A stretch of DNA of 64,000 bases from Mesostigma viride. Its lineage: Eukaryota; Streptophyta; Mesostigmatophyceae; Mesostigmatales; Mesostigmataceae. The position numbers were made by a program, and so were the translations under genes. Where the stretch lies: positions 62,001 through 126,000 of the forward strand of contig RPFO01000102.1 in assembly GCA_009746045.1 (NCBI GenBank). The letters run 5' to 3'. Below are positions 3,067 to 60,540 of this stretch, piece after piece. The notes under the pieces were generated by a model. The model was not told the origin of the DNA. It did no database searches and saw only the letters and a program-made list of their open reading frames with translations. Each line of letters starts with the position of its first letter. Position 1 is the stretch's first letter.

Positions 3067-6000
3067 ATGTTCGGCTCAAATAATGATTGGCTGGAGGCCC
3101 TGGAAAACGACGCAGCATTGCAGCGGGTCGTGTCTGTGTTACTGCCGACCTTCACAGGAGAAAACTTTCCCCAGGCAGTGAAGTTGGACGTGATGCATGG
3201 CTTGGCAGCGGCGGAAGAAGGGAAGGTGGGTGAGCCGACTGCGCAGATGTCTGCATTTGATAATATAATCGTTAGAAGTAAGAACAGCAAAAGCAAGGCT
3301 TGATGAAATGAAGACGGAAGACTCCGTTGCTGGTTGATAATACTAGCAACAACATATCGTACAAACCATGCACCAGTTTAATATTAACTTGGGCAGGTTT
3401 CCAAGCGCTAAGTACATCTCCATGCATTGCTGTGAATGTTATTCTCCTCGGTCCACAGTGTCTCTTTCCCATTCTCATCGCTCCTCTTGGCCTTACCCAT
3501 GCATGCAGGGAGATGCAGGGACCTCGCATCCAGATGACAACTAGGCTGCTAGCTAGCCATGCACAGGCTATGCTGCTTACACATCAGGCTTAATGTCTCA
3601 CTATGTGCCAACGACAGGGATTGTTGAAGTTTTAAGTGGATTTCGCTACTTGTGTTGCTGCACGGGTGCATTTGCGCGGTTCGCTGCATGGTTACAGAAG
3701 CTGAGCTGACGCAAGTGCTGCAGTGTACTTCGAAGCCTGTAGCAAAGCAAGTTCGTTACGGTTACCTAATGCCTGGCGATTCAGGTGTACAAGATGAGAA
3801 AGATACGGTGGGAAAGTCTTCGCACTTCTATCTATGCTGACGTGCATTAGTCGCATGATCAAGGCTTTCCTACGTGACCATTGCTGCCCACGACGCTGCT
3901 TGCCAACGAGTATTCTTGCATGCAGTCATGATCATTTTCTGGGCATGTGGTGAGCTCTGCCATCTCTCGAGCGAGCGCACAGTCTGCAAGGAAATGCTAA
4001 CAACGTGGCTTGTACGTGGCCATCCATTCAAACCGGCCCGCCCTCGCGGAGCACCAGCAGGCAAATGGTCTGCTCGCATGGTCACGGCTCAAAGACGCAC
4101 TCGGGGAAATCAATTACCAGCACCTCATGTTTCAAGCCTTCTTGGACACGGATTTTATGGTAAGACGCGGCAGTGTCAAGAAGGCCATTTGTTTGGTCTG
4201 TCATAGTCTTACTCCTTTTGCTGTCACCTGCTTGATCAGCAGACCGCCAAGGGACGCAGAACCGATCACTTGGGCCAGGTACCAATTTCTGACCAAAGCT
4301 AACACCGCAAAGCAGTATAAATCATGGTTTTTCGTGTTGTGAAGTAAACCTACCCATTGCACCAGTTTGGTTAGCTGAATCCATAAAAGATTGTCTGAGC
4401 AGCACCTGTAACCATGTTCTTCACATAGTCATGGTCTGTTTTTGAACGGCATCACTGTCCAATGTTGCAATGCTATGCCCCTTTCGTACGGCCTTGCAAC
4501 GCTCGGCTTGGGTGTCCCGCTGGCAACCAGCATGGCACAACGTGGTACACAGCCCCATCCTGCGTGACTGCTGCTGGGATCTAGCTAATATAGCATCATG
4601 ATGCTGTTAAAATGGTGCAACTGTGAAGATTTAAGTGTCGTTCTTTCGGCAAGACTTAACCTGTGTTGAGGGAAGTGATTGCCTGACATGTGGCCATCCA
4701 ATGAGCTTGTTCACGCCTGCTTGTACGTCTTGACATGCAGGACAACGTGCGTCGAGCCTACGAAGTGGAATCCGGACCCCAGGTGTGTTCAAACATCTGC
4801 GTATCATCTTACGACACTATACTAGACTAATAATGCAGCTGGAATGTTCTAGCAACTTTTAGAGGTTGCTTTTATCCTGACTGTCTGCTAGCTGCTTACT
4901 GAGTTTATAGATCTCTCAAGGCTGTTTGTCCGATTCTTGCTCTTTTGACATTTCTCAGCAAATGTCGTATTATAGTGCTAATTTCAATTATAATCTTCCA
5001 GAAGTATTTGTCCTTAGCTGGCATTAATGAAAGAGCAGCAGGCACCCAGGTATGTTCGGGCATTGCCCTCTTCATGACATCATACTACTAGCCAACTTCG
5101 TAGCATTTTATCGCCAACTTCGTAGACATTTTTTTGAGCCGGAGGTAGTAGTACTTTAGATTATGAAACTTATTTACCACTTCCTCCTTCGCTGTTGGCT
5201 GGCGGGGTTCTCCTTGTTACACAATTCATTTCCGGTGCCACTCTGGTTCTATCACTCTACCGCTCTCAATGTTTGTATGTCATGTCCATTAGCAGCTGGC
5301 GTATACGCATTCAATGGCAGGCTTTCCTGCAACTTTTGCCTGCGTGCTGCGTCACAGGCCGACAGTCTTGCAGGGTCGCGCGGCAAAAGGGCAAACAGCA
5401 GCGGCACTGGCGGCCCCTCGGATGACCCCGGACCCAGTAACAAACGCACCCATTATGCTGGCAGCGGAAGTGGGAGCGGTACTGACGGCAACGCTAGCAG
5501 AGCAAGTGGCAGTAACCGCACTGGTAATCCTGCCTCATCGCCTACGCAACCTGCCTCGGCTTCACAGCCGCCACCGGCACGAGCGGGCTCTACGGGACCC
5601 ACAGCGGCGCAAGCCGCAAATGCAGGTGTTTACATATCTATATTATTATCACAAACTGCCGGTGCGCATCGATGCTATGCACGGATGATCAGCATGTGTG
5701 AGGGTGACAATATGTATGTAGTTTGCTGCTACCCTCCCTGGCTCCAGTCAAGTTCAACTCGCTGTTATGAGTGTAGGGCCCGCACACAGGAGTTGGTGGT
5801 GATGGCACGTACAGAACAGGTGGGGGGTCACCCCTGCGGGACCTAGCGGCCCAGAGTGGTGCTAGGATATTTGTCATGGAGGTTAATCCCTTTGTATTTC
5901 AGTGTTTGCATCATGAAAGCGCATCCTTGTGAGCGCCGGCGGTAGTATGTGTTTTAGTTTACCGCAGCCTCCCACAGGGCCACTCTAGCTTCCCAGGGGT

Positions 6001-9000
6001 TACCAGAAGCAGTTCGAAGGGTTTACATTTAGAGCCCTGCAGCAGCAGCTTGTGCGACCTTGTTGTCTTCATTCTGAGCATGCATATGCAAGATCCATCT
6101 GGCCTTGGATGGAGGGTGGGCGGGTGAGCGCGGTCAGACTTTACAGGAAATGCAGTGCTGCATAGCCACACTCACTTTCAAGCTCTAAGCTTGCAAGCAT
6201 CTTAAACTATTACAGTAATTGTTTTTTATTCCATGTCCAATGCACTTGCTCCAAATGCACCTGCCGCTCTCTTAATGCTCCTCTCCCGTGTTCACCTTGG
6301 ACTCCAATGAATCCCCCGTTAACGGGTGGGCGGGAAGCAGCACCATTGGGACCTCGGGACCAGCGCCGCGTCAAAACCGCGCCCACAGAACGCCCCCCCG
6401 CCAATGCCTCTGCACCTCCCATGTGGTGGGGGGATGACAGCGAGCGACCACACACATGGTAAGTGGATTGCATGTTTCTGCACGGGATCTGCTTGGTTTC
6501 CAGAGAGTCCGTTTCCAGGTGGCCTCGTTCTCAGGCATAGTGTGGAATAGTTAGTGCATTCGTATCTAGGATTTCTTGTGCACCTGTGGTTAATGTTGCA
6601 CCTTCAGCACTTTTCCAACATTATGAGCCACGCCCCCTTTCGATGGCCTGCTTTGTAGAAACCGCATAAAGCTGTTTAGCCGGCGCCTCAACCGTCCATT
6701 CTACAAAGCAGAATAAATTACTTGTGTCTAATGTTGACATGTCAGCTAATTGTGGCAGTTTGAAATAACTTGAAAATGTTGCAGCCAGGATACACAGATC
6801 AATAAGCCTATTCATTCATGGCTTTCTGCTCACCTTCACTGCTCTCTTGGGTGGTTAATGTTAGGACCATGGCCTCAAGAAACTCTGGCGGTTGCCTCCG
6901 CACAGATCCGTGTGGTCTGAGACAAGCTGCATGCGCTATTATAGAACAGAAGTATGGAATACAAAGCAACCACCTTGTTTCTAGAGTGCTTTCTTGCACC
7001 TAGGGTAAATGCCAAAGTGCATCTGCTACGTTTGAAAAAGACTCCAAAAAGTACTGGGTTTCTCTCTGCTTTTCACCTCCTCCAATCTTCATTGGCCACT
7101 CAGTCAAGTCAATTAAGGATCAGGCACTTTTCACTGTCAATCGATGCTTTACAGTAGATGCCAGCCAGATCTGATTCGTCTGCTGTGCACATCGACCCAC
7201 CCTGTCGTTCTCCTTCCAAGCCCCGCACTCCCTTCCTTGTGCCAGTAACTACTTGCATGAGTATGGAGTAGTGCTCCCATTGCTTCCTCTTGTAAGATTT
7301 TGCACTGCGTTGCTTTCGTGTGTGAAAAAACAACAGGAACAGCAATCGTGCCGGTTGGTATGCCAAACAACAGCATGTTGCAGAATTGTAGCCATCAACT
7401 CAGTTTGCTCTCAGCAGGACCCCCATGCGAACTTGGCTTTTTATTTTTTCCTTTTGATATGGCATGCTTTACAGGAATATTTTGTCTCGTCTATCCTGGA
7501 CTCTCTGTTGTTTCTTCTGCGGCAGGGTGCCGACGAACAACTCGTCGCCCTCTGCAGTGTAACAGACACTCCTCAAAGGGACATGTGGTCCGACTCTGCT
7601 TGTATTTCACATAATTACGTGCTTTCAATCTGCAGGACCCCGATGACCGGCTCGCAGCCCTTTGCCTGTGTGCCGCTTACGAGTGACTCGGCAGAATACC
7701 GTACTTGGACTGCCCAGATGATGCTGTCTGGCCTCCATGTTACAGCTGTCACTCGCATCCAGAACCCAAAGCTGTGGGACCGATACGTACTCAAGCGGCG
7801 CCACGTGCTTGGCGACAAAGTCAGCCCGGGTGCACAGCCCGACCTTCCGGTGTTTGATCTCCATGAGGTGAGGTGGCGCTTGTTATCTGGTAACAAACCA
7901 GCAAACAAATTTTTGACACATCCAGTTGGCAGTAATATCTTGAATGAGAATGTTTTTACCCCAATCCATTTCCTCGCACCCTCTGCACGTGGTGAGCCTG
8001 AGGCACCCTGGCTGGCAAGTAGTGCACTGTTTCTGTTGAATAATACCATAGCTAGTGCTGGCTTTCTTTGTGGTATACGGACTCTTGCTCTGAGTATATG
8101 TTGGCAAAGCTGTTATCTACCGCACTCGAACGTTGCTGCCCCTTGTTTGAAGGATTTTTTCGGCCACACCTCCAAGCTTGCTCCCAATGCAATCGCCTTG
8201 CTTTTGTCTTCCGTTGGGTTTCACCCATTGTTGTCGTGGCAAGGGTAAGGTTATGGCTGGGATTCCCATCAAGGCTTATACTTCTATGTTGTTTGGCTGT
8301 TGGGCTCTTGTATGTGCTTTGCAGGCCCTCCTCTACCACTGCAGCAAGGAGCCAGACCACACCAAGATCTGCGGACAGGTGCGCAGTGGAGGACACGTTG
8401 TAACAGCCACCACACGGACATTTTCACAGAGATGCTTCTGCATTAGCCCAGCAAGACGTTTTCCTAATGTGATTTCAAGCCCATTAGCCCAGCAAGACGT
8501 TTTCCTATTGAGATGCTTTGTTGATGGACCTTGTCCAGCATGATTTGTAAACATTTTGGTGGCCACTTTGCTGACTCCTTACGGCTTCAGGCATGATCTC
8601 ATTCAGCAGTTGACATCCAGCTTTTTCTTGCGTTTCGTCTGCCACCATTGGTAGGGACTTGCGTTACTGCAAAATGATTAGGTGAAGCCTCGTATTTGAT
8701 ACATGGCGCTCTCTAATCTACAATGCATGCACCACGCCATGACATGAGCGTTTCTACGAATGCGTGTGCCAGCTTTAGGTGACAAAACATTACTGCTGCA
8801 AGATCAACTGCTTGCGTGACCCCAGCTAGTGTCCGCGAGAGAGAGAGCAAAGACAACGCCTATCGATGACTCTGGAAGGCAACCACCGCCAAGGTCGCGA
8901 TAGTTACCAAACTATGATACTAGATTGGGCGGCCTCGCAGCTTTGACAGTGCCATGCCAGCGTGCCTGTTATTTCCTTGTTCCTCTTCACTGCTAACTCC

Positions 9001-11177
9001 CTTGGGGGGCTGGGGTTTGTCAAGGTGGGGAAGAAGGGGGACTGAAGGGAGGGAGGGAGGGAGGGAGGGAGGGAGGGAGGGAGGGGGAGGGAGGGAGGGA
9101 GGGAGGGAGGAGGGAGGGAGGGAGGAGGAGGGAGGGAGGGAGGGAGGGAGGGAGGGAGGGAGGGAGGGAGGGAGGGAGGGAGGGAGGGAGGGAGGGAGGG
9201 AGGGAGGGAGGGAGGGAGGGAGGGAGGGAGGGAGGGAGGGAGGGAGGGAGGGAGGGAGGGAGGGAGGGAGGGAGGGAGGGAGGGAGGGAGGGAGGGAGGG
9301 AGGGAGGGAGGGAGGGAGGGAGGGAGGGAGGGAGGGAGGGAGGGAGGAGAGCTCGTATTTCAATGTCTCGTAGGGCCAGCCTGTTGCTTTTGGCCATAAT
9401 CTCGCTTAACGCTGTCTGCCCTTCTTGCCACCCTTCTTCTGTTGTCTTGCTGCTGCTGCTGCTGCCATTTCTCTGCCATATATGCCATTACAGGCACGAA
9501 TTGGCTATTCTTAGGTCGTCACCATGCATGTGCAAAGGTGTCCTGTTTTGCACTTGCAAATGCAACATGCATGTGTCCTTCTGTGCTTAGCAGCATCCAT
9601 TGATGGTACAGCCATTATTTGATTCTTCGCAGCCATCTGCTCTTAGGATGTTATAATCCCATGCAGTGGCACTGACCATGCCTTGGACTAGGCTTCTATA
9701 GATGATCCTTATCTTCGATGTCCCAGAAAAAAGGTCTTTTTCTTGCATGAGGATGCATGTTTAACTTAGGCTTTGTGCTCTCGGGACAGAATTCCTGCCA
9801 GAAGGCTTCCAAATTATGCCATCATATCCCGGCTAGCATAGTGGACATGAATGAAGGAGTTCAAATCTCATGACTTATTTGGTCTGTGTGGCGCTCACAT
9901 ATGCAAACATGCAGGGGCTGGATCTGAGGTTAGCAGAGGGAGGCTACTTTGGGTCGGGCATCTACCTGACGGATGACCCGCGCAAGGCAATAACCTACAG
10001 CAACAACACTGGCAAAATCTACGTCTTCGCTGCCATTCTTGGTGATGTGCTGGCAGTGCCGGCGCGGGATACGTTTGCTCCCTGGAAGATGGAGCCCGAG
10101 AAAATTGCCCTGGATCGGCGTACATCGGCCGACATGCATTTCGACTCGCTGGTTGGCAGGCGGGCGTTCCCCCCAGAGGGAACTACGGGTGCCAATGAGT
10201 TTGTTCTGTACGACCACAGCGCAACGTGCCCCATGTACATGGTGGAGTTTGCAAAGAAAGGCAAGGAACGGGTTACGCCCACACCATCCGCACTGTGCGG
10301 CGTGCCTGATTTTGCGTGGAAGAGCGAGGGCGCAAAAGAGGCAAACGTGCCAAACCCATTTGGCGACGTGGCAGGCACCAGCAGCTACGTTGATGACGGC
10401 ACCCGCTGGAACTTTTTCCTCCACACCTTCTACCAAGGAGTTGTCCCAGATGTGGTCAGACCCGAGTGGACGATAGCTATCGGTATGAATGTCATGGCAG
10501 ACGCTGCTAATGCTGCTAATGCAACGACTGTGTGCAAGGGATGTACAGTCACGGAGAAGGTCCTCGCCAAATATCAAGGTTGGAAATGCGTGATGTGCCA
10601 GAATTCCCTAGCCAAGGGCGACATCTGCCTGGTCATGCCGTGCGGCCATGTGAATGGCCACGCCGACTGCTGCCGCCCGCTCATCCAAACGCGCGTCATG
10701 GCGGACGGGGTCACGTCGCAGACCTTCACCCGCTGTGAGGTGTGCACGCGGCGATTCGGCGTGACAGTGGGCAAGCAGCCGCTAAGCGCCCGCATGACCC
10801 ACCAGGTGGTCCCTGACATCACCCTGGCAGGGCACGCACAGGGTGGCATGATAAAGATAACATACTTCATCCCAGGTGGCATGCAAGACCCTGATGGTGA
10901 TGATCCTGGGAAGCTCTTTGCAGGAACGCGCCGCGATGCCTTTCTGCCAAACTCTACCGAGGGTAAGGAAGTGCTCAGGCAGCTGCAGCAAGCGTTTCAG
11001 CAGCGGCTGATTTTCTCTGTCGGCACGAGTCTTACCTCAGGGAGGGACAATGTGGTCATTTGGAACGGCATCCACCACAAGACTGACCTTACGCCGCATG
11101 CTGAGCATGGATACCCAGATGGCACATATCTAACACGTGTAAAGGCAGAAATGCAGCAGGCTGGGGTGGTCGTGTAA
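3067..11177 (+). CDS. PARP - RING-H2 - Deltex (DTC) fusion protein, 9 exons
   Basis: Predicted ADP-ribosyltransferase joined to a Deltex-type E3 ubiquitin ligase, about 760 aa. Exons by splice signal and phase: 3067-3225, 4061-4159, 4741-4782, 5002-5049, 5358-5625, 6341-6458, 7636-7867, 8325-8378, 9915-11177. All junctions keep frame. Residues 1-116 are unrecognised and mostly helical-looking; 117-245 is a Ser/Gly/Pro-rich linker with short basic patches. The PARP domain (about 246-455) has RIQNPKLWDRY, LYHC (H327), GSGIYL (Y357) and NEFVLYD (E435), a complete H-Y-E triad. The RING-H2 uses C565, C568, C583, H585, H589, C592, C614 and C617. The DTC domain (about 640-757) has GTS.TSG, IHHKT and HGYPD; H738 and E752 are 14 residues apart, as I recall for the DTX2 catalytic pair. 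Deltex RING-DTC modules ubiquitylate ADP-ribosylated targets, so one chain could do both steps (inference). The start at 3067 and exon 2 acceptor are the least certain points; an upstream exon is possible. Confidence 0.85.
9047..9348 (+). repeat. (GGGA)n microsatellite, about 300 bp, in the last PARP-Deltex intron
   Basis: About 75 near-perfect GGGA units on the coding strand, with a few GGGGA or GGA interruptions near the 5' side. The array lies in the intron between exons 8 and 9 of the PARP-Deltex gene. The transcript would carry a long run of G triplets able to form G-quadruplexes. Open frames reading Gly-Arg-Glu or Leu-Pro-Pro-Ser repeats here are artefacts of the repeat. Confidence 0.95.
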
Positions 11178-11629: not shown

Positions 11630-13540
11630 AATTGATAGCATGTGACTGCGTCACGTGAACATAATTCTCATGAAAAGAAAACGGATGTCTATCTAGAAAA
11701 AAGGCTATTCGCGAGTGGCAGGGTTGCGGCCACCGCGTCCGGTGCACACTGTGCCTACTGTACTGGGTGACCCGAGGCACCGGCCCTACGTGCTTTGGCT
11801 TATGAGCTACCATAACATCATGCCACTTCTCCTCACGGGTCATCTTCCGCCAAATGTCCGACAGCCTGGGGGGCGCGCTAGGCTGCATCTGAGTCACCGG
11901 GTCAGGGCCTAGCACATGTTCGAACCTAGCCCTTCCCAGAAGGTGTGCGAGGGAGCACCAGGCCGGCGCGCCTTGCTTTTGGGTCGCCATGTGAGAACAT
12001 ATGGCGCCCTGGCTGAGCGGGCTTGGTGCCAGCTGACCTATCGATCTAGTGTGTCGATCTGATCTGTGAGTGCCAGGTGCCCAGCTAGGCCCAGGCGCCT
12101 GTGTCTAAGAACATTGGAAACATAAGGCAAATCGGCATACAAATCTTTGTTGCTAATGTGCTAGCTGAAGGGAATGTTAATTAAGATCTTTTCGTAGCAT
12201 CTTGATGACGGCGCCGTAGAGTCGGTCCTCAAGCTCCTTGGTCAGTGCCCAGGTCTCCCTCCCGTAGGTGAGGATGGTCAGGACGACGACCTTAGAAAGG
12301 TCGCGTTTGACCACCCGGGGAAGATGCGGGTTGCTCCACCACTGACGGTGGTCGTGGAGATCCGCCCAGGACAGGGTGATCCGGTGCTGCAGGTTGTTGT
12401 CATAGTCTGGGAGCCAGCTGCCAAGCAGCTTGAAGCGGGAGGTGTAGGGCATGGGCGTGTCGTCGAGGAGGCGCAGGTCGGAGGGGGCTGGGCCAGGCCA
12501 ACAGCCCTGGCCTCCGTCTTAGGGCTGATCTCTAGGCCCACTGCGCGTGCTTCGAGGGCCAGGCAATCCAGCCAAAGCTGGATGTGCTCTGGACGTTCGA
12601 GGATCGAGCGCCATGTCGTCTGCATAGATGAGGTCAGAGAGTGAGTACTGGGCATTGGTCGCACCACCTTCCCCTTGCTCATTCCTGATGTCGAGGCCAG
12701 GCGGGCGTTGGGCTATGTAGCTGTGCAAAGCGAGCACGTGCCTGGCGCATAATGTAATCCACTACGATGATGAACAGGTACGGTGACAGGACACAACCTT
12801 GCCAGACGCCTGTCTGCAGTGGGCATGGCAGGGTGGTGCCGTGTGAGGTGCGCACCGAGGCGGTGGTTCCCTCATACAGCTTCCGGATGACAGCAATCAG
12901 TCAGGGGGGTGGGCACGCGCGCGCAAGGATGGACCAGAGAGAAGCCCAGAGGACCGAGAGTCGAAAGCTTTGATGAAGTCGACGAAGAGCAGGATGGCGG
13001 GAAACTCACCAGGGTGCCAGCGGGAGATCTCCTCTAGGACACGGCGCGCGACGAAGATGGCCATGACCGTGTTGCGCCCGGGCCGGAAGCCCATCTCCGC
13101 TTCGCCCAGCTGACAGTCGAGAGCAGAACGCAGACGGTTGAGGATCATGCGCATCAACAGCTTGAGGGCGGCGGGCTCTGGATGCAGACTCCACGGTAGT
13201 ACATACGCAGGATCACTGCCGGGGAGCCCTTGTTCTTGTACAGCATGATACAGAAGCTGTGCTGCCATTCTGGGATGGGCCGTGGGCGGCTCACTGGGGA
13301 GCAGAAGTTGGTTGCATCGGCCGCCATTCGGGGCCCAGCGGCGGGGGAGGCGGGGCAAGCCCAGCAGGCGGGACTGGAAAGAGTACCAGAGGTCCAGCTG
13401 CTGCTGTGGGGTACTAGTTATGCTGAATCGAAATTCAATGCTTTTTTGTAGCAAAAGACTCATGTACATGCTGTCGTTTTGTACTTTCGGTGGAGCAATC
13501 ACAAATATGCTTTTGCCCTCACCCTCGTCAACGCGCAATT
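11630..13540 (-). mobile_element. LINE family A, 5'-truncated and frameshifted ORF2
   Basis: A non-LTR retrotransposon read on the minus strand. From high to low coordinates the RT motifs appear in shifting frames: KLLMRMILNRL and GFRPGRNTVMAI (about 13,160-13,060), LLFVDFIKAFDS (about 12,985), LIYADDMAL (about 12,630) and LTYGRETWALTK (about 12,250). The 3' end at 11,630-11,700 has a conserved hairpin and an AATTAATTAA-type tail. Stops and frameshifts show it is dead. It faces the host PARP-Deltex gene tail to tail. This copy serves as the reference for the many shorter family A pieces in the window. Confidence 0.85.
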
Positions 13541-42690: not shown

Positions 42691-45600
42691 CTAGTGCTTG
42701 GCTCGTTTGGAGCCACCACCCTTGCAAAGCCTCGGCTCCGCCTGTTTCTCTGCTTCTTGTAATGACTCAGCCAACCCAATCGCCAGCATTAGTTCGTCGT
42801 CCTCGTCCACCACGTGCACTTTCTTGCCATTCGTAGCACTTCTTCCCGCAGTTGAAGTATTGTTGGACGTCCTATGAGGCGTAATAGACTTTGGAGGTGC
42901 AACAGTCTTATCAAGAAGTGTGGCAGTCTCAGTGGAAGGTGTTACAGTCTTAGTAGGAGGCGTGACAGTCTTAGAGGGTGTTGCACTCGGGTGACCTTCC
43001 AGAGACGCAGCAATGGCTCCCGAAAGCTCCACAGCGTCGTTCTTGCCCGCCGGAATGCCATCACAGTCCCTCACCGATGCCGCTAGCGCGGCAGCCAGCG
43101 CAGCATCTTCCAGCAGCGCGGCGGCCGCGTCGTGCGCCGATGGATGGCCAGCAACATCCACAGTGTGCCGATCCTGCCTCATGTGGCGAGCAGAATCCAA
43201 ATGGTCCAGCAACACCGCCAGGTCATCCAGCAACGGCACCGGAGAAAAGAGGCCGTTCTGCGGCCCCGACGGCCCCGCGCTGCATGCCGAGGACACGGCT
43301 TTCGCGCCGCCACCTGAGCCCCTGGTCGATCGCCCAGGCAGCTGGACAGGTGGCGCAATGCTGGGCCCCACGCCACGTGAGCCTTCGTGAACGATGTGTG
43401 CCGTGAGCTTACCCAGTTTGTAGTCCCCCCCGGTGGCTACCAGCAGCAGCGCCAGGCATTGGTGGCCCGCGCAATTGCTGGCGACTGGGCGCTGTCCTCC
43501 TGGTGGTACATTGGGGCGTCTGCCAGCAGCAACAGATGCACACGCACCGCCACCCCCAGCCCCCACATCGTGCTGCGTGCCGGGGATGGTTACCGTGTGG
43601 CGGAACCGCTCCCATTTCATCCAGTTGAACCCCCCGTCAGCAGGGGCCAGAGGTGGGCCTGGTGGGGCTCTTCCGGTTGGGTGTTGTTTTGGGTTGGGCT
43701 CGTTTGGAGCAGATGCATCAGGTTGGAGCAGGCCACTGTGGGACCCCCTGGCAACCATCCCCTTGGCGTTGGCACAGACCTGCAAGAAAGGCACACCCAG
43801 TAGAGCACCCAGTAGAGCAGAAGAAGACACAGGGGAACGTTACAGGGGGAAAGGGGGGCTCGATGGGCCGGATAAGTGAATTGCTGTACAAAGAAGACGA
43901 AAATGTTAAGCCAGAAGTATAAGCTGAGGCCAATGACAGCATAGTGTAACACTATATAACAGTCTCTTAAGACATGGTCATAAGGGCCCCCTGCTAGCCT
44001 ATAAGGGAAGTGGAAGGCGCATGGCGGCTCATGGTGCCTTGGCCAAGAGCCGCTTGCCGCCTGCATCGTGCCTCGAGCGCGACGGACCATGTCTCTCCGC
44101 ATCAAGGCAGCGCTAACGCTCAACCAAGGATCTCAGACTAACAAGTTCTTCCTTTAAAACAAAGCTGCTCGACATTACCTCTTTGACCCCCCTTCGAGTA
44201 GATGGGGTTGTCTCATGGCTATACGCTTTGCATTTCAATCCACAAAGGGAAGTGAGAAGATATCCATTGGTAAAGCAATTTCCATGGGCGGCTGTGCTGG
44301 TGCCCCAAAGGATCGGGGTAGTTCAAGCATGTGCATGAACTTTTACAGCCCATCCACCTAGGTTTTTCTTCTTCATTTCCCCTCTCTTTTGTTTTTGTAC
44401 AGCCAGGTGGCAAGCCAAACAGTGGGCAGTAACAGTTCCGGCGGTCATCCCATCGGCTTCATCATGCTGTCTGCTCCACCGTGAGGTCTACTTCATGTGG
44501 CCTGCCCGGTCACACATCCTGATACGTCACCACGTCGCGACAAAACCCCCAAATGTAGTAAACCCTTCCATTGGACACACCCAGCTGGCAGCAGAAACAA
44601 CACCGCTGCCACCATAGACACAAAAATTGCCAGCATAAACACAACGCGGATGCTCCCCAAGACACATCCCGAAAATACATGCGCAAACATGCAGAAGGGG
44701 GGTACCTCTGCCTTACTTCCACTTTTCCTGATCAGACAGATGCTGCCAGCTTCTGACTAGGTGGGCGGGAACCTGTTTATTGGGATGCACAAACGCCTGA
44801 AGAGAGACAGTGCCAACGGCCCGCAAGATAGACAGTGCCACCCCCCCGCAAGAGAGACAGTGACAGCCCACCGCAAGAGAAGCAGTGACAGCCCCTCACA
44901 AGAGAAACAGTGACAACCCCTCACAGGAGAGACAGTGCCAAACCCCCGCAAGAGAGACAGTAACACCCCCCCGCAAGAGAGACAGTGCCACCCCCCCGCA
45001 AGAGAGACAGTGACAGCCCACCGCAAGAGAAGCAGTGACAGCCCCTCACAAGAGAAACAGTGACAACCCCTCACAGGAGAGACAGTGCCAAACCCCCGCA
45101 AGAGAGACAGTAACACCCCCCCGCAAGAGAGACAGTGACAGCCCACCGCAAGAGAGACAGTGACAGCCCACCGCAAGAGAAGCAGTGACAGCCCCTCACA
45201 AGAGAAACAGTGACAACCCCTCACAGGAGAGACAGTGCCACCCCCCGCAAGAGAGACAGTAACACCCCCCCGCAAGAGAGACAGTGACAGGCCCCCAACA
45301 AGAAACACCTGCGCAACTGAGACACGAAGATGCTCCCTGGATTTTGAGCCCTAGATATCAACACCAACAGCCGTAATAGAGAGGCACCACACCAGTGGGG
45401 AGATGCTAGCAGCCGTACGTGAGAGGAACGCACATGCCTTGCTGCTCGTGACCCAATCGGTCCATGTTGCGACGACTGCCTATCTCAAAGCATCGTACCA
45501 GGCCGTTTTGCTGATGAACGTTGCGTGGCAGTCTCTGAAGAAAGGTCTCATAGGAAACGCGCATCTGCCTGCATGTGGGTTGGACCGTGAACAGCCCAAC

Positions 45601-48600
45601 ATGTGACTGTCCATGCCACATGTGCTGCGTGGATATCCTGGTACGTGCTGCGGTTCCGCAAATTTGAATATCTGAATGGCAATGCCAACCCTCAACCAGC
45701 GAACTGCAGAAATGATATTCTAAGCGAATACACACTAGTTCTACCCGTCTTAGTAGCATGAACTCCACCATCACCTGCTAACCCCCCCAGAGCTACGAAT
45801 CTGAAAACAGGGCAGGCTACCTTAAGACCCCCCGGCCTAGGCTAGCGCCACCCGCCCAGTGCTACCAGAAATGGGAGGACTTCAAACCACCCTCATCCCT
45901 CTTAAATCCTTCCCTATGCAAACCTCAGCAACCATTTCGCCCTCCTACCCCCCCCCCCCCAAAAAAAAAAGCACTCACCTCTACATGCACTGCATGAGGC
46001 CCTCGGTTGACCACCAAGCACCCGACGACGCCCTCTGTCTGCACATCCACGAGCAGGACCTGGCCACTGCTGCGCGCAACCTCTCTTGTTGAATGTGATG
46101 GCCTACCCGCCGCCCCCTCTTTCCAAGGGGACGCCCCACTAGCTGCAGGGACCCGTGTGGGACGAACACCTGCTGACGCTAGCGGGCTCCAATGCCAGCG
46201 GACGCGGGGGTGGACGATGGCACAAGGATCCCACCTGGGCGCGTGCCTTCCCATGCTTGTGCCAGCATGAGCGTGCGAGGCTGTTTCCAGAATTATCTGC
46301 TGACGCCGCCTCTCTTCCTCGCAGCGCAGCAGGTACAGGAGTCCCTGGTGAAACGCCGTCAGCAGGCGACAAGTGTCGCAATCGGACCATTCCCGGAATG
46401 GGTGCTGCGTGACGACCAGTGGCGCGCTGGCAAAGAAACGTACAGTGAATGGCGCGCCCTGAGTGACCTCCGCCGCCAACGGCCCCGTGCCCAGGTTGAA
46501 CGCTATCACCAGGTAGTCGCTGGCAGGGTCGTCCAGGGTGGCGACGACAGGGCGTCGGCTATTTCGATTGCCCGCACCGTGCAGCCCGCCGCCCACTACC
46601 TCGGCGATGTTCCCATCGGGGTCCAGCCGGGCCACCAGCAGCGACAGGTCGCCCGGCCTGTAGCTCTTCTTGCGGTCGGCACGGGTGTCCGCCCCGCGGC
46701 TGGCCGGCTGGAGTGCCATGAGGTAGAGCAAGGTGGGCTGGGTGGCCTGCACACGGTATGTGTGCTGGCACACGCGCCAGGGTGACGTCGGCACGCAGAA
46801 GGCGTTGGGCAGGGAGCGGGCGTGCCAGTCCTGGAAGGCGAAGCAGACGTCAACGATGGAGAAGCCCATGACAAAGTGGGTCAGGTCCATCCAAAAGGTG
46901 CCGTCATTCACACCCGTGCGTTGTAGACCGGATGGGGAGAGCAGCGTGGCCCAGCTGGAGGAGGCATCGCTCCATGCTCCGCTCCACTCGCCGACACCTG
47001 CATGGATGCGTAGTGGGAAGGAAGACAGCCCAAGTGTGCAAGGGAAGGTGGGGAATGCAGGGAAGAGGAGAGCCATGGATGGGGGCTGAAAAAAATATGT
47101 GAAATACAGCCCTTTTGAAGCTTTTTATACCATCACTGGCCAACAGCAGACAGGGCAAGCAGAGTGCACGGTCAACCAAAGGTGTAAGCCCACTTGAAAC
47201 AAAGGGCCAACTGAGCAGGGGGGCAATATGCAACCGGAAAACAGAGGATAGGGCAGGCAGTATGGGGGGCCCCTGAAAGGAGAATTAGGAGATAGGGCAG
47301 GCAAAACGGAGATGACCACAAGGATTGATTGCACACTCGTCCGAGAATAGAGAATCTCCTGTGCACTTTTTGCAAACATAATCCACCCTGTTTCAATGCG
47401 CGCACACACGCATGCATCTTTAAAGCAATGCACACATGTGGACAGTGTATTATGGTAGATGGTTGAAAATGACCCAGTAAGAGTAGAGACTACCGAAATC
47501 AACACAGCCCGAGACATTAACATTCATTGCAAGTCATTGGTGCAGTCCGGCCGGTGCAACGTCATCGCAACATCATTCACACACGGTGCCGGTTCACCCA
47601 TCTGGTTCAGGCATCGCATGCATTTATGCTGGGCATCGCACCGTGGGGGTTGCGTATCCGCAAAAGTCGCACGTAGTTCCCGCGCTGCGCCGTGCCACCC
47701 GCGCCATTCCTTGCATTGCCTCCGCCACCGGCCCCCCCCCGACCCCCGCATCTGCCCTCCTTGAGCTGCACCTCGCGACACTCAAGGATGGAGTAGGCGT
47801 GGTTGCCCACCAGACCCATCTCTTCTAAATGTGGGTTCGGCGCCGTGGCACAGCCCATGGGAAACTTCTGGGACTTGAAATAGACCAGCTGCGCCCACAG
47901 AGCGTCCAGCGAAAAACCAGGGTAGTCCATCTCCACCGTGAACACGGGCGCCCCGGTTAGATCCAGTAGAGCCTCCGCCACCTGGCCTCCCGCAATCGCA
48001 CGGTAGGACCCGTGGGCCTTGGCGTAGGCCTTCTCGAGCAGCGGGGCCCACAGCTGCTGATGATCCGCGCGGGAGAAGGCCAGAAAAGTGTCAAGCGAGG
48101 GACCCCCGAGCGCTCCCTGGGTGCCGCGGTGCCGTGGCCGGTTTGTGATTGGCAACTGGGCGTCCACGAGGATGGAGCGCCAGTCACCGTCTAAAAATAG
48201 CCGCACGAGGTAGCAACCGGCCGCGTTCGGCGCGGTGTCGGCGAACAGTTTCGCGATCAGGTCGCCTCGTTCCGCCACCACAGCAAGTGCGGACAAGAAC
48301 CAGCAGTCGCCCACGCCGCCTTGCTGCAGGTCCGAGGCTTTGAAGCCAGTATCTGTCACCACCACATACTGGGGGAAACGGCTCCATGCAAAGGTGGACC
48401 ATGGGGTGGCCTGGCTGTTGGCCCAAGCGAAGAACCCACAGCGACGTGCCGCACAGTAGTAATACTGGCATTCGGTGTCTGGGGGGTCCTTCTTCACAGT
48501 TGTGCGCGCACAAGGGACGTTGCACCTACAGGAGACCACGCGGCGGGTACTAGCGGCCGGCACTGCTTGTCGTGCGGACGCGCCCACCGCCAGGTTCTTG

Positions 48601-49490
48601 CCTTCCAGTGACCGACTGTCTGCAGCATGCCGCAACGTGACAAGGCAGCAAAGTGCCGCGTTAGTGATATCAGACCGACTGCACGGGCATTGAAAGAGGC
48701 ATGGAAATGAGGGCAAGGAAACGACGCCCCCTTGTGACCTGTGATTATCTAACCGAGAGAACTCAGTAACTAAGTTACTTGCGATTGACAACAAAAGACA
48801 ACATTGAACGTCTGGGCATGGATTGCACTCTGGGAAGCTCATTAATTGTACACGGCACAAGAAGACGTAGAAGATACACTCTTTAGAGCTTCATTGAGAA
48901 AGGAATTGCCAACTGCTTCGTCTCCTTCTCATGGCAAAAACCGCGTAGTTTAGCATGATGATTCTCGAGGTAGAAAACTAAAAGAGGAAGACGAAATATC
49001 TTTTTGTATCTCGCCTTTCTTGCCTGAACGTTTGTTATACAATCAATGTCGTTTTGCTCTTCTTACAGGACTTCTTGATCATTCTCCTCAAGCTTAATCG
49101 TACCAGAAGGAGGCAGTTCGCTAAAAGATTGCTCCAAGCGTTGGATAATGGAGCAGCCCTCCAACATCCCCTTCCTGCACTGCCGTTTGTCCAGCTCTTT
49201 CCATGACCCGTTATGAACAACTAGCATTATGAAACAATATGGTGGCCCAAAAAGTCATCAGTATACCTCGCATGGTCACTCCCGGGGCAAAAAAAATAGA
49301 GAAGTAAGCAATTGTACATTCTATAGAGTTAGATAAATTCGTTTGCGTACGTAGGTACGTACGTACCGGGTGGAAACGCGTCATCGGACCATGGAATGCC
49401 ACTTTTACGAATCTCATTCCAACGAGACGTGAGGCATTCATCCTCCGGCATATGTTCGCCTTCCAAAACGTATACTACGCACTCAGCCAT
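42691..49490 (-). CDS. SOL/calpain-15-like protease with GRF zinc finger and UIM-like motifs, 4 exons
   Basis: Predicted cytosolic or nuclear cysteine protease, about 1,069 aa. Exons on the minus strand: 49490-49367, 48619-47642, 46997-45979, 43779-42691; all junctions keep phase and have GT-AG ends. The start is in a good context (GACCATGG). The calpain domain begins with DDAFPP-S-SL, then is interrupted by a GRF-type zinc finger (about 71-109: CRC, TVKKD, C97, C102, FFAWAN). It resumes with QGGVGDCWFLSALAVVAER (C147), GNHAYSI (H315) and RIRNPHG (N365). EWSGAWSD and DGTFWMDLTHFV follow in exon 3. The order and the AVVAER and EKAYAKAHGSY segments resemble SOL/calpain-15. Three UIM-like helices lie at about 931-945, 955-969 and 1032-1051, and the C-terminus GSKRAKH is basic. 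RNPHG replaces the usual RNPWG. GRF fingers bind single-stranded nucleic acid and UIMs bind ubiquitin in known proteins; substrates here are unknown. Confidence 0.85.
44805..45300 (-). repeat. 25-bp minisatellite with 150-bp higher-order period, in calpain intron 3
   Basis: About 20 units of 25 bp with the core CAAGAGAGACAGTG and a C-rich half. Six distinguishable units form a 150-bp block; the GTGCCACCCCCCCGCAAG unit at 44,835 recurs at 44,985. The later part is rearranged. The array lies in the 2.2-kb intron between calpain exons 3 and 4. Long Gly/Ser/Leu-rich frames across it are repeat artefacts. Confidence 0.85.
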
Positions 49491-57590: not shown

Positions 57591-60083
57591 TCATATGATT
57601 CCTGGACCTGCTGAATAAATTTTCCACCTCAGCTCTAGGCCCACAAATGAGTTGGTCATCTCCATGCCACACAAAGAACAGCAGTCCAGAGGGGGTGGGT
57701 ACAACAAAAAAGCATGGGTCCAGGTCATCATACGTGGCCTTGAGCTTTTTGAATACTTCCTCTGCTGAGTCTCTGAAAATTTTGGGGCACTGACAAGCCC
57801 TTCCACCCCAATGTTGATGATAAGGTGGGGCTCATCAATGTAAGGTTTCCACACAGCTGGGGTGTCTACCACGTACACCTTCCCTTTCCACACAGATTCA
57901 GCCTTTTCTGGGTCCCCCCTGAGGAAGGCCCTTTTAATATCAGTGGCTTTGCAGACATAGTCTTGGCCTGCATTGAGGTTGTGGAGGAATAGGGAGAGCA
58001 TGATCCTGAGTGAGGTTTGTTGCAGCCCAGGTGTGTAGGTTTCCCCTTTTGGCAGTGTGGATGTCCCCTTTAATTCTGTGACACATGGTCTGGCATGGAA
58101 GATTGGGGAGCCCACTTTTTGTGGTTTTTGTTTGAGAACAAATTTTAATCTGAGCTTTTTGGCTCCCTCTGGCACGTCCCATGAAGGGGTGACAGGAGGT
58201 TTGTATTGAGGGTTTTTGGGGTTGGGCAGGACCCATTCCTGCCTGGCTTGGTGGACAATGGCCATCAGCCACTTGGTAAACCCTTTTTGTGTTTTGCATT
58301 CTTGTATGACGTGGGAGATTTGGTGGGGTGAGTGCATGGCTATGTCCCACTTACCCAGCCCAAAGGCTGAGGGATGGAGGAACTGGCTGTGCACTAACTT
58401 GTCCAGATCAGGGATCTCCCCTGGTGCATACTGAGTGTTGACTGCCTTGATGACAGCATCCATACCAGGGACAATACTGGAGAGAGGGATTTTAAAGTGG
58501 TCCAGAGGAACTGCACCCACCCCTGTGACACTGAGCTCATTAGCTGAGATAAGCACCCCAGGATAGGATACAAAAGGTTCCCCCAACAAGGTGTTACCAG
58601 AGTACCCCTCCACCACCTGGAAGGGTGTCTGAATACCAAGTATAGGGAGCATCACCTGTCCCACTACATCCAGTGAGCTTTGGCCTGAGAAATCCTGCAC
58701 CCGTGCCCAAAATGAAGGTGCAATCTCAAGACCAGGGATGGCTTGTGCACTGATCACACTGACCTGTGCCTGAGTGTCTATTGCCAGGGTCCAGGGGTCC
58801 TGACTAGTGCACACAGCTGAGACTTTTGCCAACCCTTCGGCCACAGCAGCTTGTTGCTTATGTGACCTGTGTAATGCTTGCAAGGCGACTGCCAATCTTG
58901 ACCTCAGAGCGGGAGGGTTGGCAGACAATTTGGTGCCTTGGGGCTGAGCTAATGCTTCCAACCCAGCTACCTCGTGCCTGGTTAAGCAATCCCCAGGTTG
59001 TGAAGTGGGCCTGGCTTCACTGAGGGTGGAAGGGTTCACAGAGGGTGCTGTGGTGCTGTCAACAGCAGTAATTGGTGGCTCAGGGCTACTGCTGGGCATG
59101 CTGGAGTTGCCAGATAGAAGTAGTGAGTCCATGCTTAAAGACTCTTCCCCAGGCACGTCTGCCATGGGAGAATAATACTTCTTAATTCTATGACAGCTCA
59201 CCCTGTGACGCTTCCCATTGATATTGTGCTTGACCTCCACGGTCTTGCTGTTTTTGGTAAATCCACGGATGGTAACTGGACCTAGCCAAGTTCCAACCTT
59301 ACCAAAGCTGTTTTCCTTGTAATAGAGAACTTGATCACCTTTTTGGAATACTGGCCTGGGATGGGTTTTATCTTTTTCTGCCAGTTTTGCTGAGGTTTGT
59401 GCACGTGCAGTGTTGTACAGTGCTATCACCTCTGGGGGATATACACCTGCCTGCAGGCCTGCTGGGATTACTTCACCCCACTTGGCATGCAAGACAGGTC
59501 TCATGTTTAGGGTTGTGCACATTTCATGACACCAGAGTGCCCTGTCACAATAGACCCCTGAAGTAGCATCCTTGGAAGGATTTTTGGCTAGTAGGGTTTT
59601 GACAGATCTGATGGTTCTTTCAATGACCCCCTGACCCTCATGATCTTCCAGCCCAGCAATCTCTATTGCTTCACACCCTTCCAGGTCAGTCAGACAAGAA
59701 AATTGTTGATCAAGCAAAATTCTGTCAACTGGGTAGAATCTGGGTAAAGCAATCATGAGTGCAACACGTAGCTGCCCTGCAGACATGCCAGGTAGGGGTT
59801 CCATTACTGTGAACCTGGACCATGAATCTTTTAGGATCAGGTAGGGTTGGACATCTTTGTTGATGTGCATCACATCCCCCACTATCATGCCTCTAGTGGT
59901 GGAAGGAGTTGCAGTATGCCATTTTTTAGGTTTGGGGCTGTTAAACTGACATTCTTGACAGTGTTGTCTAGCCAGTTTTACTGCATTCCTGAGTTGTTTT
60001 CCCATGCTACTACCCCCCAGCCGTCTGGCCAGTTCCTCAGCCACTGTTTCATGACCCATGGCTAGGCAGCAGCTGATGAGCAA
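57591..60083 (-). CDS. Copia-like element 1 polyprotein: integrase - protease - RT
   Basis: An 830-codon minus-strand frame. The integrase has a zinc-binding region (H11, C42, C45) and D70, D125 and E155 (GDVMHINKD, LLDQQFS, GVIERT). A chromodomain-like tail ends in HRIKKYY. Near 58,750-58,790 follows a retropepsin-like segment, LAIDTQAQVSVIS, with GNTLLGEPFVSYPG later; DTQA replaces the usual DTGA. The RT begins with KLRLKFVLKQK and has KATDIKRAFLRGDP. Near 57,790 the frame shifts by one base. The catalytic box WHGDDQLICG and the preceding GLLFFV are in the other frame (about 57,640-57,690). Canonical copia order is protease-integrase-RT-RNase H, so the protease position is unusual. The element is probably inactive. 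Confidence 0.8.
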   Translation of the reverse strand: MLISCCLAMGHETVAEELARRLGGSSMGKQLRNAVKLARQHCQECQFNSPKPKKWHTATPSTTRGMIVGDVMHINKDVQPYLILKDSWSRFTVMEPLPGMSAGQLRVALMIALPRFYPVDRILLDQQFSCLTDLEGCEAIEIAGLEDHEGQGVIERTIRSVKTLLAKNPSKDATSGVYCDRALWCHEMCTTLNMRPVLHAKWGEVIPAGLQAGVYPPEVIALYNTARAQTSAKLAEKDKTHPRPVFQKGDQVLYYKENSFGKVGTWLGPVTIRGFTKNSKTVEVKHNINGKRHRVSCHRIKKYYSPMADVPGEESLSMDSLLLSGNSSMPSSSPEPPITAVDSTTAPSVNPSTLSEARPTSQPGDCLTRHEVAGLEALAQPQGTKLSANPPALRSRLAVALQALHRSHKQQAAVAEGLAKVSAVCTSQDPWTLAIDTQAQVSVISAQAIPGLEIAPSFWARVQDFSGQSSLDVVGQVMLPILGIQTPFQVVEGYSGNTLLGEPFVSYPGVLISANELSVTGVGAVPLDHFKIPLSSIVPGMDAVIKAVNTQYAPGEIPDLDKLVHSQFLHPSAFGLGKWDIAMHSPHQISHVIQECKTQKGFTKWLMAIVHQARQEWVLPNPKNPQYKPPVTPSWDVPEGAKKLRLKFVLKQKPQKVGSPIFHARPCVTELKGTSTLPKGETYTPGLQQTSLRIMLSLFLHNLNAGQDYVCKATDIKRAFLRGDPEKAESVWKGKVYVVDTPAVWKPYIDEPHLIINIGVEGLVSAPKFSETQQRKYSKSSRPRMMTWTHAFLLYPPPLDCCSLCGMEMTNSFVGLELRWKIYSAGPGII

Positions 60084-60540
60084 GCTCCTTGATATCTATG
60101 GAGTTGTCAACAGTGGGGGTTAGTGCTTTTATGTAAGGTTCCAGTACAGGGTGTTGGGAGGACAGTAAGGTTGCTGCCTCAAAATCAATTATGCCCTGGC
60201 TGCCATCCCCAATGGTAATGAGATCATCATCCTCAGAGTAAGCAAGGTGAGAGAACTCACATTGATTTGGGTAGCGAGGCCTGTTGCAACGGCTGCCTGG
60301 AGCTGGCCAGGTTGTGCCTCGTGTAGTGGCAGCCTGGGCAGAGATCCACATTGTTGACCAGTGTAGGGTTGTGGTTGCACTGGTTGCGGCTGTGCCCCGT
60401 CTGGAAGCACCTCAGGCACCTGACCCTTCCAGGGTTGCCAGGTTGCCTATTGTTGTTGTTGTTGTTGTTGTTGTTGCCCTGTTGGGGCCGGTTGTTGTTG
60501 TTGTTATTGCCCTGTGAGGGCCTGTTGTTGGTATTGTTAT
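60049..60540 (-). pseudogene. Copia-like element 1, gag C-terminus with zinc knuckle and pol start
   Basis: Minus-strand frame with poly-Asn tracts encoded by (CAA/AAC)n, then VRCLRCFQTGHSRNQC, a perfect CX2CX4HX4C zinc knuckle. A second CPGCHYTRH motif follows (about 60,400-60,320). This frame stops near 60,255. A different frame continues as FSHLAYSEDDDLITIGDGSQ and overlaps the start of the integrase frame in yet another register at 60,070. The shifts could be decay or, at the gag-pol junction, a translational frameshift; I cannot tell. Confidence 0.7.

Follow-up and report, generated by a model that had tools for sequence, protein, structure and literature searches.

Organization of the Mesostigma viride PARP-RING-DTC locus

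The subject of this study is a gene on the forward strand of a 64,000-nucleotide (nt) window of DNA from the freshwater green alga Mesostigma viride. The window is the whole stretch analyzed, and a genome search for the Deltex C-terminal (DTC) domain placed it at C1580:62001-126000 within the 440-Mb assembly. In a single chain, the gene joins a poly(ADP-ribose) polymerase (PARP) catalytic domain, a RING finger and a DTC domain. A public protein model, P0001 (jgi/Mesvir1 Mv13512-RA, 744 amino acids (aa)), is the exact translation of an eight-exon chain whose introns are all GT-AG, and the window query part matched it at 100% identity in the protein search. The features of the locus are given below in window positions and P0001 residue numbers, with confidence in the structure model expressed as the predicted local distance difference test (pLDDT); published papers are cited by PMC number, each from the part of its text that was available.

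3067..3225, + strand: exon 1; start Met, residues 1-53, first half of the N-terminal all-helical domain; exact match to P0001
4061..4159, + strand: exon 2; N-terminal helical domain; GT-AG
4741..4782, + strand: exon 3; final part of the N-terminal helical domain; GT-AG
5002..5049, + strand: additional 48-nt exon of the sequence-only reading, doubtful; in frame, AG/GT borders, not in the JGI model
5358..5625, + strand: exon 4; low-complexity linker, pLDDT < 50
6341..6458, + strand: exon 5; linker with the end ..WWGDDSERPHTW; matches at paralogous loci
7636..7867, + strand: exon 6; N-terminal part of PARP (TRIQNPKLW..Y); Pfam PARP match at residues 260-436
8325..8378, + strand: exon 7; 54 nt, ALLYHCS.., AG..GT borders; triad His311 (8337-8339), then Cys312
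9915..11177, + strand: exon 8; C-terminal half of PARP, linker, RING, DTC and stop codon in a single open frame
9963..9965, + strand: triad Tyr341; aligns with the Tyr of tankyrase-2 GIYF; Tyr in 10/10 loci of the family described below
10197..10199, + strand: triad Glu419 (ANEFVLY); Glu in 10/10 loci
10584..10745, + strand: RING finger, residues 548-601; C3H2C3 ligands at 549, 552, 567, 569, 573, 576, 598 and 601
10770..11168, + strand: DTC domain, residues 610-742
11073..11075, + strand: His711, equivalent of the DTX2 catalytic His582 by alignment with 6y22 and 6y5n (role: PMC11460948)
11106..11108, + strand: His722, equivalent by alignment of DTX2 His594, in the ADP-ribose pocket
11148..11150, + strand: Glu736, equivalent by alignment of the DTX2 catalytic Glu608

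An earlier sequence-only reading of this DNA had proposed nine exons and 760 aa, so that its residue numbers equal those of P0001 plus 16. Eight of its exons reproduce P0001 exactly, but the other one (5002-5049) is absent from the JGI model. This stretch encodes KYLSLAGINERAAGTQ, a peptide without a match at E < 0.05 in 18 paralog stretches, which is a weak test for a 16-residue query; the neighboring N-terminal exons were themselves matched in only two of the 18. We consider the extra exon unsupported rather than disproved.

Could distinct PARP and Deltex genes have been wrongly joined? The fusion is known here from genomic sequence, not from transcripts. However, the whole last exon lies within the open frame 9855-11177, and PARP Tyr/Glu, RING and DTC are all encoded there in one frame, which makes the fusion independent of how the gene is spliced. 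Even the scenario raised in the sequence-only reading, in which exons 7-8 and exon 9 of its nine belong to different genes, could not part PARP Tyr/Glu from the DTC domain. As the same one-frame arrangement is seen in at least seven other loci and the fusion recurs at ten, an artefact of the gene model is hardly credible.

The short exon with the triad His has a counterpart in all nine other loci, as does the coding stretch of exon 6. The intron before it is of phase 0 and lies four codons upstream of H311; a phase-0 intron just before the His codon is found in human PARP genes bar two (PMC1266365). The intron between the His exon and the last exon contains a long GGGA tetranucleotide array (window about 9040-9350).

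Domains and predicted structure

Pfam matches bear out the domain assignments of the sequence-only reading: P0001 scored 41.9 bits for PARP (PF00644; cut-off 26.7, E = 1.1e-10) and 143.8 bits for DTC (PF18102; cut-off 25, E = 4.5e-42). Its RING-H2 finger was correctly called as well, with all eight zinc ligands present in the alignment, though the score for zf-RING_2 (18.3 bits) is under the cut-off of 27.3. RING immediately precedes DTC, and the two together match DTX1/2/3L structures in a fold search. A profile built from eight PARP sequences of the family matched PARP12 (E = 1.4e-11) and tankyrase-2 (E = 2e-9), and the PARP domain of paralogous locus L015 on its own gave no PDB sequence match at E up to 0.01. 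For P0001, Pfam listed no macro, KH or WWE domain, no RST domain at E up to 10, and no UBCc domain at E up to 10 with filters that drop most matches > 0.1.

The structure model has a mean pLDDT of 58.4 (55.4 in a version with more paralog rows). Six helices are predicted at residues 5-97, where ten-residue means range from 70 to 94. This N-terminal six-helix domain, common to P0002 and P0004 (two further public models from the family), had no match in Pfam, nor among PDB sequences up to E 10; the fold search used the whole model as its query and its matches were filled by PARP and Deltex structures. The linker of roughly 90 residues between PARP and RING is predicted with low confidence and probably disordered.

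A multicopy family with DTC-less members

The sequence-only reading described a single gene, but the window gene does not stand alone: it is one of about ten PARP-RING-DTC genes in the same genome. The DTC genome search, in which all 16 candidates were scored and none of 14 control genomes was positive, yielded 13 matches in the genome (10 full-domain, 3 partial). Upstream of every full-length DTC (10/10) there are coding stretches for RING and PARP, and nine paralogous loci repeat the window arrangement. C1580 and C335 carry three loci each, and C446, C2089, C1418 and C299 a single one each. Eight share the single last exon of the window gene; L009 and L014 have an extra intron inside the C-terminal half of PARP (PARP-C), despite which PARP Glu, RING and DTC remain in one frame. 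These two loci also have very long low-complexity PARP-RING linkers (open frames of 1141 and 1374 codons). The PARP Pfam score exceeded the cut-off in 9/9 copies scanned (L010 left out). Mesostigma fusion gene models are public as unnamed predictions, two of which, P0002 and P0003, were matched by eye to L013 and L017, respectively.

L010, L012 and L016 each have a neighboring additional copy in which PARP exons but no DTC match are present, resembling P0004, a protein without DTC in which H, Y and E are all present. In a FastTree phylogeny of PARP-C with midpoint rooting (L016 neighbor left out), P0004 and the DTC-less sequences beside L010 and L012 group at support 0.985 and are nested among fused genes, which suggests that the DTC-less copies derive from DTC loss; the root of this tree is uncertain and several other nodes have very low support. 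Some members of the family seem to have lost the DTC domain or its catalytic residues.

In L010 (G000:C1580:1003500-1012800), the closest paralog to the window gene, an in-frame stop lies at the end of the first PARP exon, and RING/DTC fragments are found downstream on the reverse strand. In L013 (G000:C2089:417500-427000), a second partial DTC of about 91 codons (oriented 8360-8635) follows shortly past the stop of the fused gene.

With ten fused copies, DTC-less neighbors beside three of them, three copies on each of C1580 and C335, and copies broken to differing degrees, the genes might also form a fast-turnover, conflict-type effector family (e.g. antiviral or anti-symbiont), whose copy number and decay would explain the pattern better than a single conserved role in the cell. 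This view, which we return to with the selection data, would be compatible with an enzyme that writes both ADP-ribose and ubiquitin marks.

Catalytic residues and their conservation

The PARP triad of the sequence-only reading (H327/Y357/E435) corresponds to H311/Y341/E419 in P0001, and His, Tyr and Glu are each conserved in 10/10 loci. The only alignment of Glu419 to the Glu of tankyrase-2 EYVIY came from a sub-threshold HMMER stretch (score -3.3). All eight RING ligands are kept in 9/10 loci, with Asp replacing one in L013; the RING of L016 has two additional residues between the first two cysteines.

For the DTC domain, the sequence-only reading had named H738 and E752. Both are present (H722/E736) and the Glu is indeed the catalytic one, but the His is a residue of the ADP-ribose pocket. 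The catalytic pair of DTX2 consists of His582 and Glu608, His594 being important for ADP-ribose binding (PMC11460948), and this His/Glu pair is strictly conserved across Deltex family members (PMC10810221). H594/E608 as the DTX2 catalytic pair was accordingly dropped. The catalytic His of the window protein, unnamed in the sequence-only reading, is H711 (727 in its numbering). Glu is found at the catalytic position in 9/10 loci (Ala in L016), and the position equivalent to His594 holds His in six loci (including L009), Tyr in two (including L014) and Phe in two. Altogether, triad, ligands and DTC pair are kept, and the PARP-to-DTC exons are stop-free, in 6/10 loci (window, L009, L011, L012, L014 and L015).

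PARPs usually have Gly after the triad His, a residue outside the H-Y-E definition. In the window and 9/10 loci overall, this position is Cys; only L015 has Gly (LLYHGT), together with all other catalytic and ligand residues, and the notion of an HC motif universal in the family was therefore dropped. At L015 (G000:C335:5186000-5195500, minus strand), two copies of the His exon are separated by about 100 nt (at oriented positions 5116 and 5219), one of HCS type with a stop, the other open and of HGT type.

Two of these observations speak against a protein that writes both marks. The strongest doubt comes from the Cys, which qualifies the earlier statement that both active sites are intact, triad and DTC His/Glu being present; the second is the DTC catalytic His, kept in 8/10 loci and replaced by Gln in L016 and L017.

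The first could mean that PARP is silent and serves as a scaffold or NAD+/ADP-ribose sensor for a Deltex ligase. The change from Gly to Cys affects 9/10 loci, and in PARP10 a Gly888Trp change, at the same position judging by the printed primer, abolishes activity and is used as a dead mutant (PMC9659153). PARP9 is inactive and partners DTX3L; PARP14 is active and able to modify DTX3L (PMC13224862). However, Cys is far smaller than Trp; the triad Tyr and Glu, which would be dispensable in a dead enzyme, are unchanged in 10/10 loci; and L015 has HGT. DTC-less P0004 moreover keeps H, Y and E, which suggests a PARP worth keeping alone. On the basis of these residues, PARP activity of the window protein is likely and a silent PARP improbable.

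The second observation would fit an E3 ligase of conventional chemistry, in which an active PARP modifies mainly itself, DTC acts only as a reader of ADP-ribose and RING ubiquitylates lysines: an NAD+-regulated, self-limiting ligase, equivalent to tankyrase-RNF146 in one chain. In its favor, the PARP triad is complete in every locus when the DTC His is lost in two, and Deltex RING-DTC fragments recruit ADP-ribosylated substrates and support poly(ADP-ribose)-dependent ubiquitination (PMC11460948). Yet the window copy retains precisely the His/Glu pair on which ubiquitylation of ADP-ribose depends, and we regard a purely conventional E3 as unlikely.

Purifying selection on both halves

Ratios of nonsynonymous to synonymous substitution rates (dN/dS) were computed pairwise over the last exon by the Nei-Gojobori method (NG86) for 8/10 loci, excluding L009 and L014, in which the last exon is split and the linker very long; these simple values come from non-independent pairs and may be affected by gene conversion. 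Medians were 0.236 for PARP-C, 0.231 for RING and 0.279 for DTC (28/28 pairs each), compared to 0.419 for the linker (27/28 pairs computable). Leaving out stop-bearing L010 gave 0.227, 0.222 and 0.275 (21/21 pairs) and 0.434 for the linker (20/21). The window-L010 pair lay above the medians (0.433 for PARP-C, 0.489 for RING and 0.328 for DTC), as expected if L010 decays.

These values indicate that PARP-C, RING and DTC are under purifying selection and that both halves are maintained as proteins. A PARP-C ratio of about 0.23 argues against a silent PARP, and a DTC ratio that is little higher than the PARP-C one against a DTC freed from catalysis in a conventional E3. Every computed pair remained below 1, the highest single value being 0.706 (RING), which runs counter to a conflict-type family; we deem that reading doubtful.

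Relatives outside Mesostigma and the rest of the window

Each protein search scored about 8,000 word-sharing candidates. PARP and DTC occurred together in five of the 21 distinct proteins returned: P0001, P0002, P0003, P0013 and P0014. The last two (source code lgn, metagenomic data, possibly from a protist) are 86% identical to each other and carry PARP-RING-DTC in one chain; in P0013, zinc-finger-like matches at the N-terminus are combined with RING, DTC and a PARP match that is partial (29.8 bits, cut-off 26.7). By eye, both have Ile/Phe at the triad Glu position. No pairwise similarity could be detected between their PARP part and that of Mesostigma, so they may represent an independent fusion. 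P0015 and P0016 are 52-54% identical to P0013 in alignments covering 99-100%, and Pfam listed no PARP for them up to E 10. P0006 and P0010 (an animal and a metagenome match) are Deltex proteins with macrodomains instead of PARP. Short-pattern scans, which provide weak evidence, gave no confirmed relative in viral contigs (16 matches for P0013, 145 for query A3) or in bacterial/archaeal genome contigs (63 matches for A3). In P0005 (Attheya septentrionalis, 440 aa), two DTC-like stretches appear by eye to flank one RING.

Elsewhere in the window, minus-strand frames at 12278-13538 and 57591-60095 resemble, by eye, reverse transcriptase/integrase-type retroelement pieces. Three long open frames occupy 42691-48890 on the minus strand, of which 47607-48890 is presumably calpain-like, given a GDCWFLSA motif seen by eye.

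A candidate cis-acting writer of a hybrid mark

As one chain contains candidate writers of both marks, we favor a cis-coupled dual writer, and put the chance that the window protein is a single-chain, cis-acting writer of a ubiquitin-ADP-ribose hybrid mark at about even. In this proposal, the N-terminal helical domain would select PARP targets and the H-Y-E-type PARP domain would move ADP-ribose from NAD+ onto itself and/or those targets. The tethered RING would recruit E2~ubiquitin while ADP-ribose sits in the DTC pocket; His711/Glu736 would activate the 3'-OH of the adenosine ribose, joining ubiquitin to ADP-ribose. The PARP-RING linker could let RING-DTC reach the PARP product, possibly between molecules too. 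Fusion, family, residues and selection are established by the sequence data, and the Deltex RING-DTC chemistry and a two-chain tankyrase version come from published biochemistry (PMC11460948, PMC12407064); both activities in the Mesostigma protein, their order and their targets we infer. As the sequence-only reading proposed, the protein might need no partner, whether it modifies itself or other targets, with E1 and E2 still required.

Extended to the family, the proposal would give a streptophyte alga self-sufficient dual writers in multiple copies, with all full-length DTCs found being PARP-fused, bring the hybrid mark into the green lineage, and have the fusion arise perhaps twice (P0013/P0014). 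We hold this wider picture tentatively, at slightly less than even weight.

In the animal systems covered by the literature cited here, PARP and Deltex proteins that make the hybrid mark are separate, whereas a natural fusion would physically couple both steps. With both sets of catalytic residues in one protein, the fusion offers a one-protein reconstitution system in which cis coupling is directly testable. It would mean that evolution joined PARP and Deltex activities outside animals and, if active, would bring plants and their algal kin within the range of hybrid-mark chemistry. Natural variation among the ten paralogs (HG or HC, DTC His present or lost, some neighbors DTC-less) could help to tell apart what each of the two active sites contributes.

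Comparison with known systems

No description of a PARP-DTC fusion or of the Mesostigma family was found in the literature searched, a scope outside which most subscription papers and supplements fall. "Deltex" is absent from the available main text of two eukaryote-wide PARP surveys (PMC2964712, PMC4245714), and the accessible part of a 2025 plant PARP phylogeny (PMC12785305) mentions neither Mesostigma nor Deltex. PARP fused to ubiquitin-pathway domains is already known; PARP fused to RING-DTC appears, within that scope, to be undescribed.

The known fusions comprise PARP-UBCc proteins of fungal Clade 6A, Chlamydomonas and moss, and a U-box-PARP of Dictyostelium (PMC1266365, PMC2964712, PMC4245714). 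Like the Mesostigma protein, PARP-UBCc proteins combine PARP with a ubiquitin-pathway catalytic domain in one chain, but theirs is an E2-like UBCc and that of Mesostigma RING-DTC. The plant SRO/RCD1 proteins are PARP-like members of the plant lineage too, but with WWE/RST; no SROs were found in the algal genomes surveyed by PMC2848248, and RING is absent from the available part of that text. P0013/P0014 share the PARP-RING-DTC order and are set apart by their N-terminal zinc-finger-like region.

Among Deltex proteins, human DTX1, DTX2, DTX3, DTX3L and DTX4 are described in the available papers with N-termini of WWE, proline-rich or KH type, in contrast to the PARP catalytic domain of the Mesostigma protein. 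The vertebrate PARP9-DTX3L system (and PARP14) resembles it in pairing a PARP-type domain functionally with a Deltex RING-DTC; there, however, separate chains with macrodomains and KH are involved and PARP9 is inactive, whereas Mesostigma has one chain with an H-Y-E PARP. Tankyrase carries ankyrin repeats and SAM. DTX2 and DTX3 ubiquitylate mono-ADP-ribose on tankyrase in cells (PMC12407064), so that a self-modifying PARP is then ubiquitylated on its ADP-ribose in trans, whereas in Mesostigma the ligase is fused C-terminally to PARP itself.

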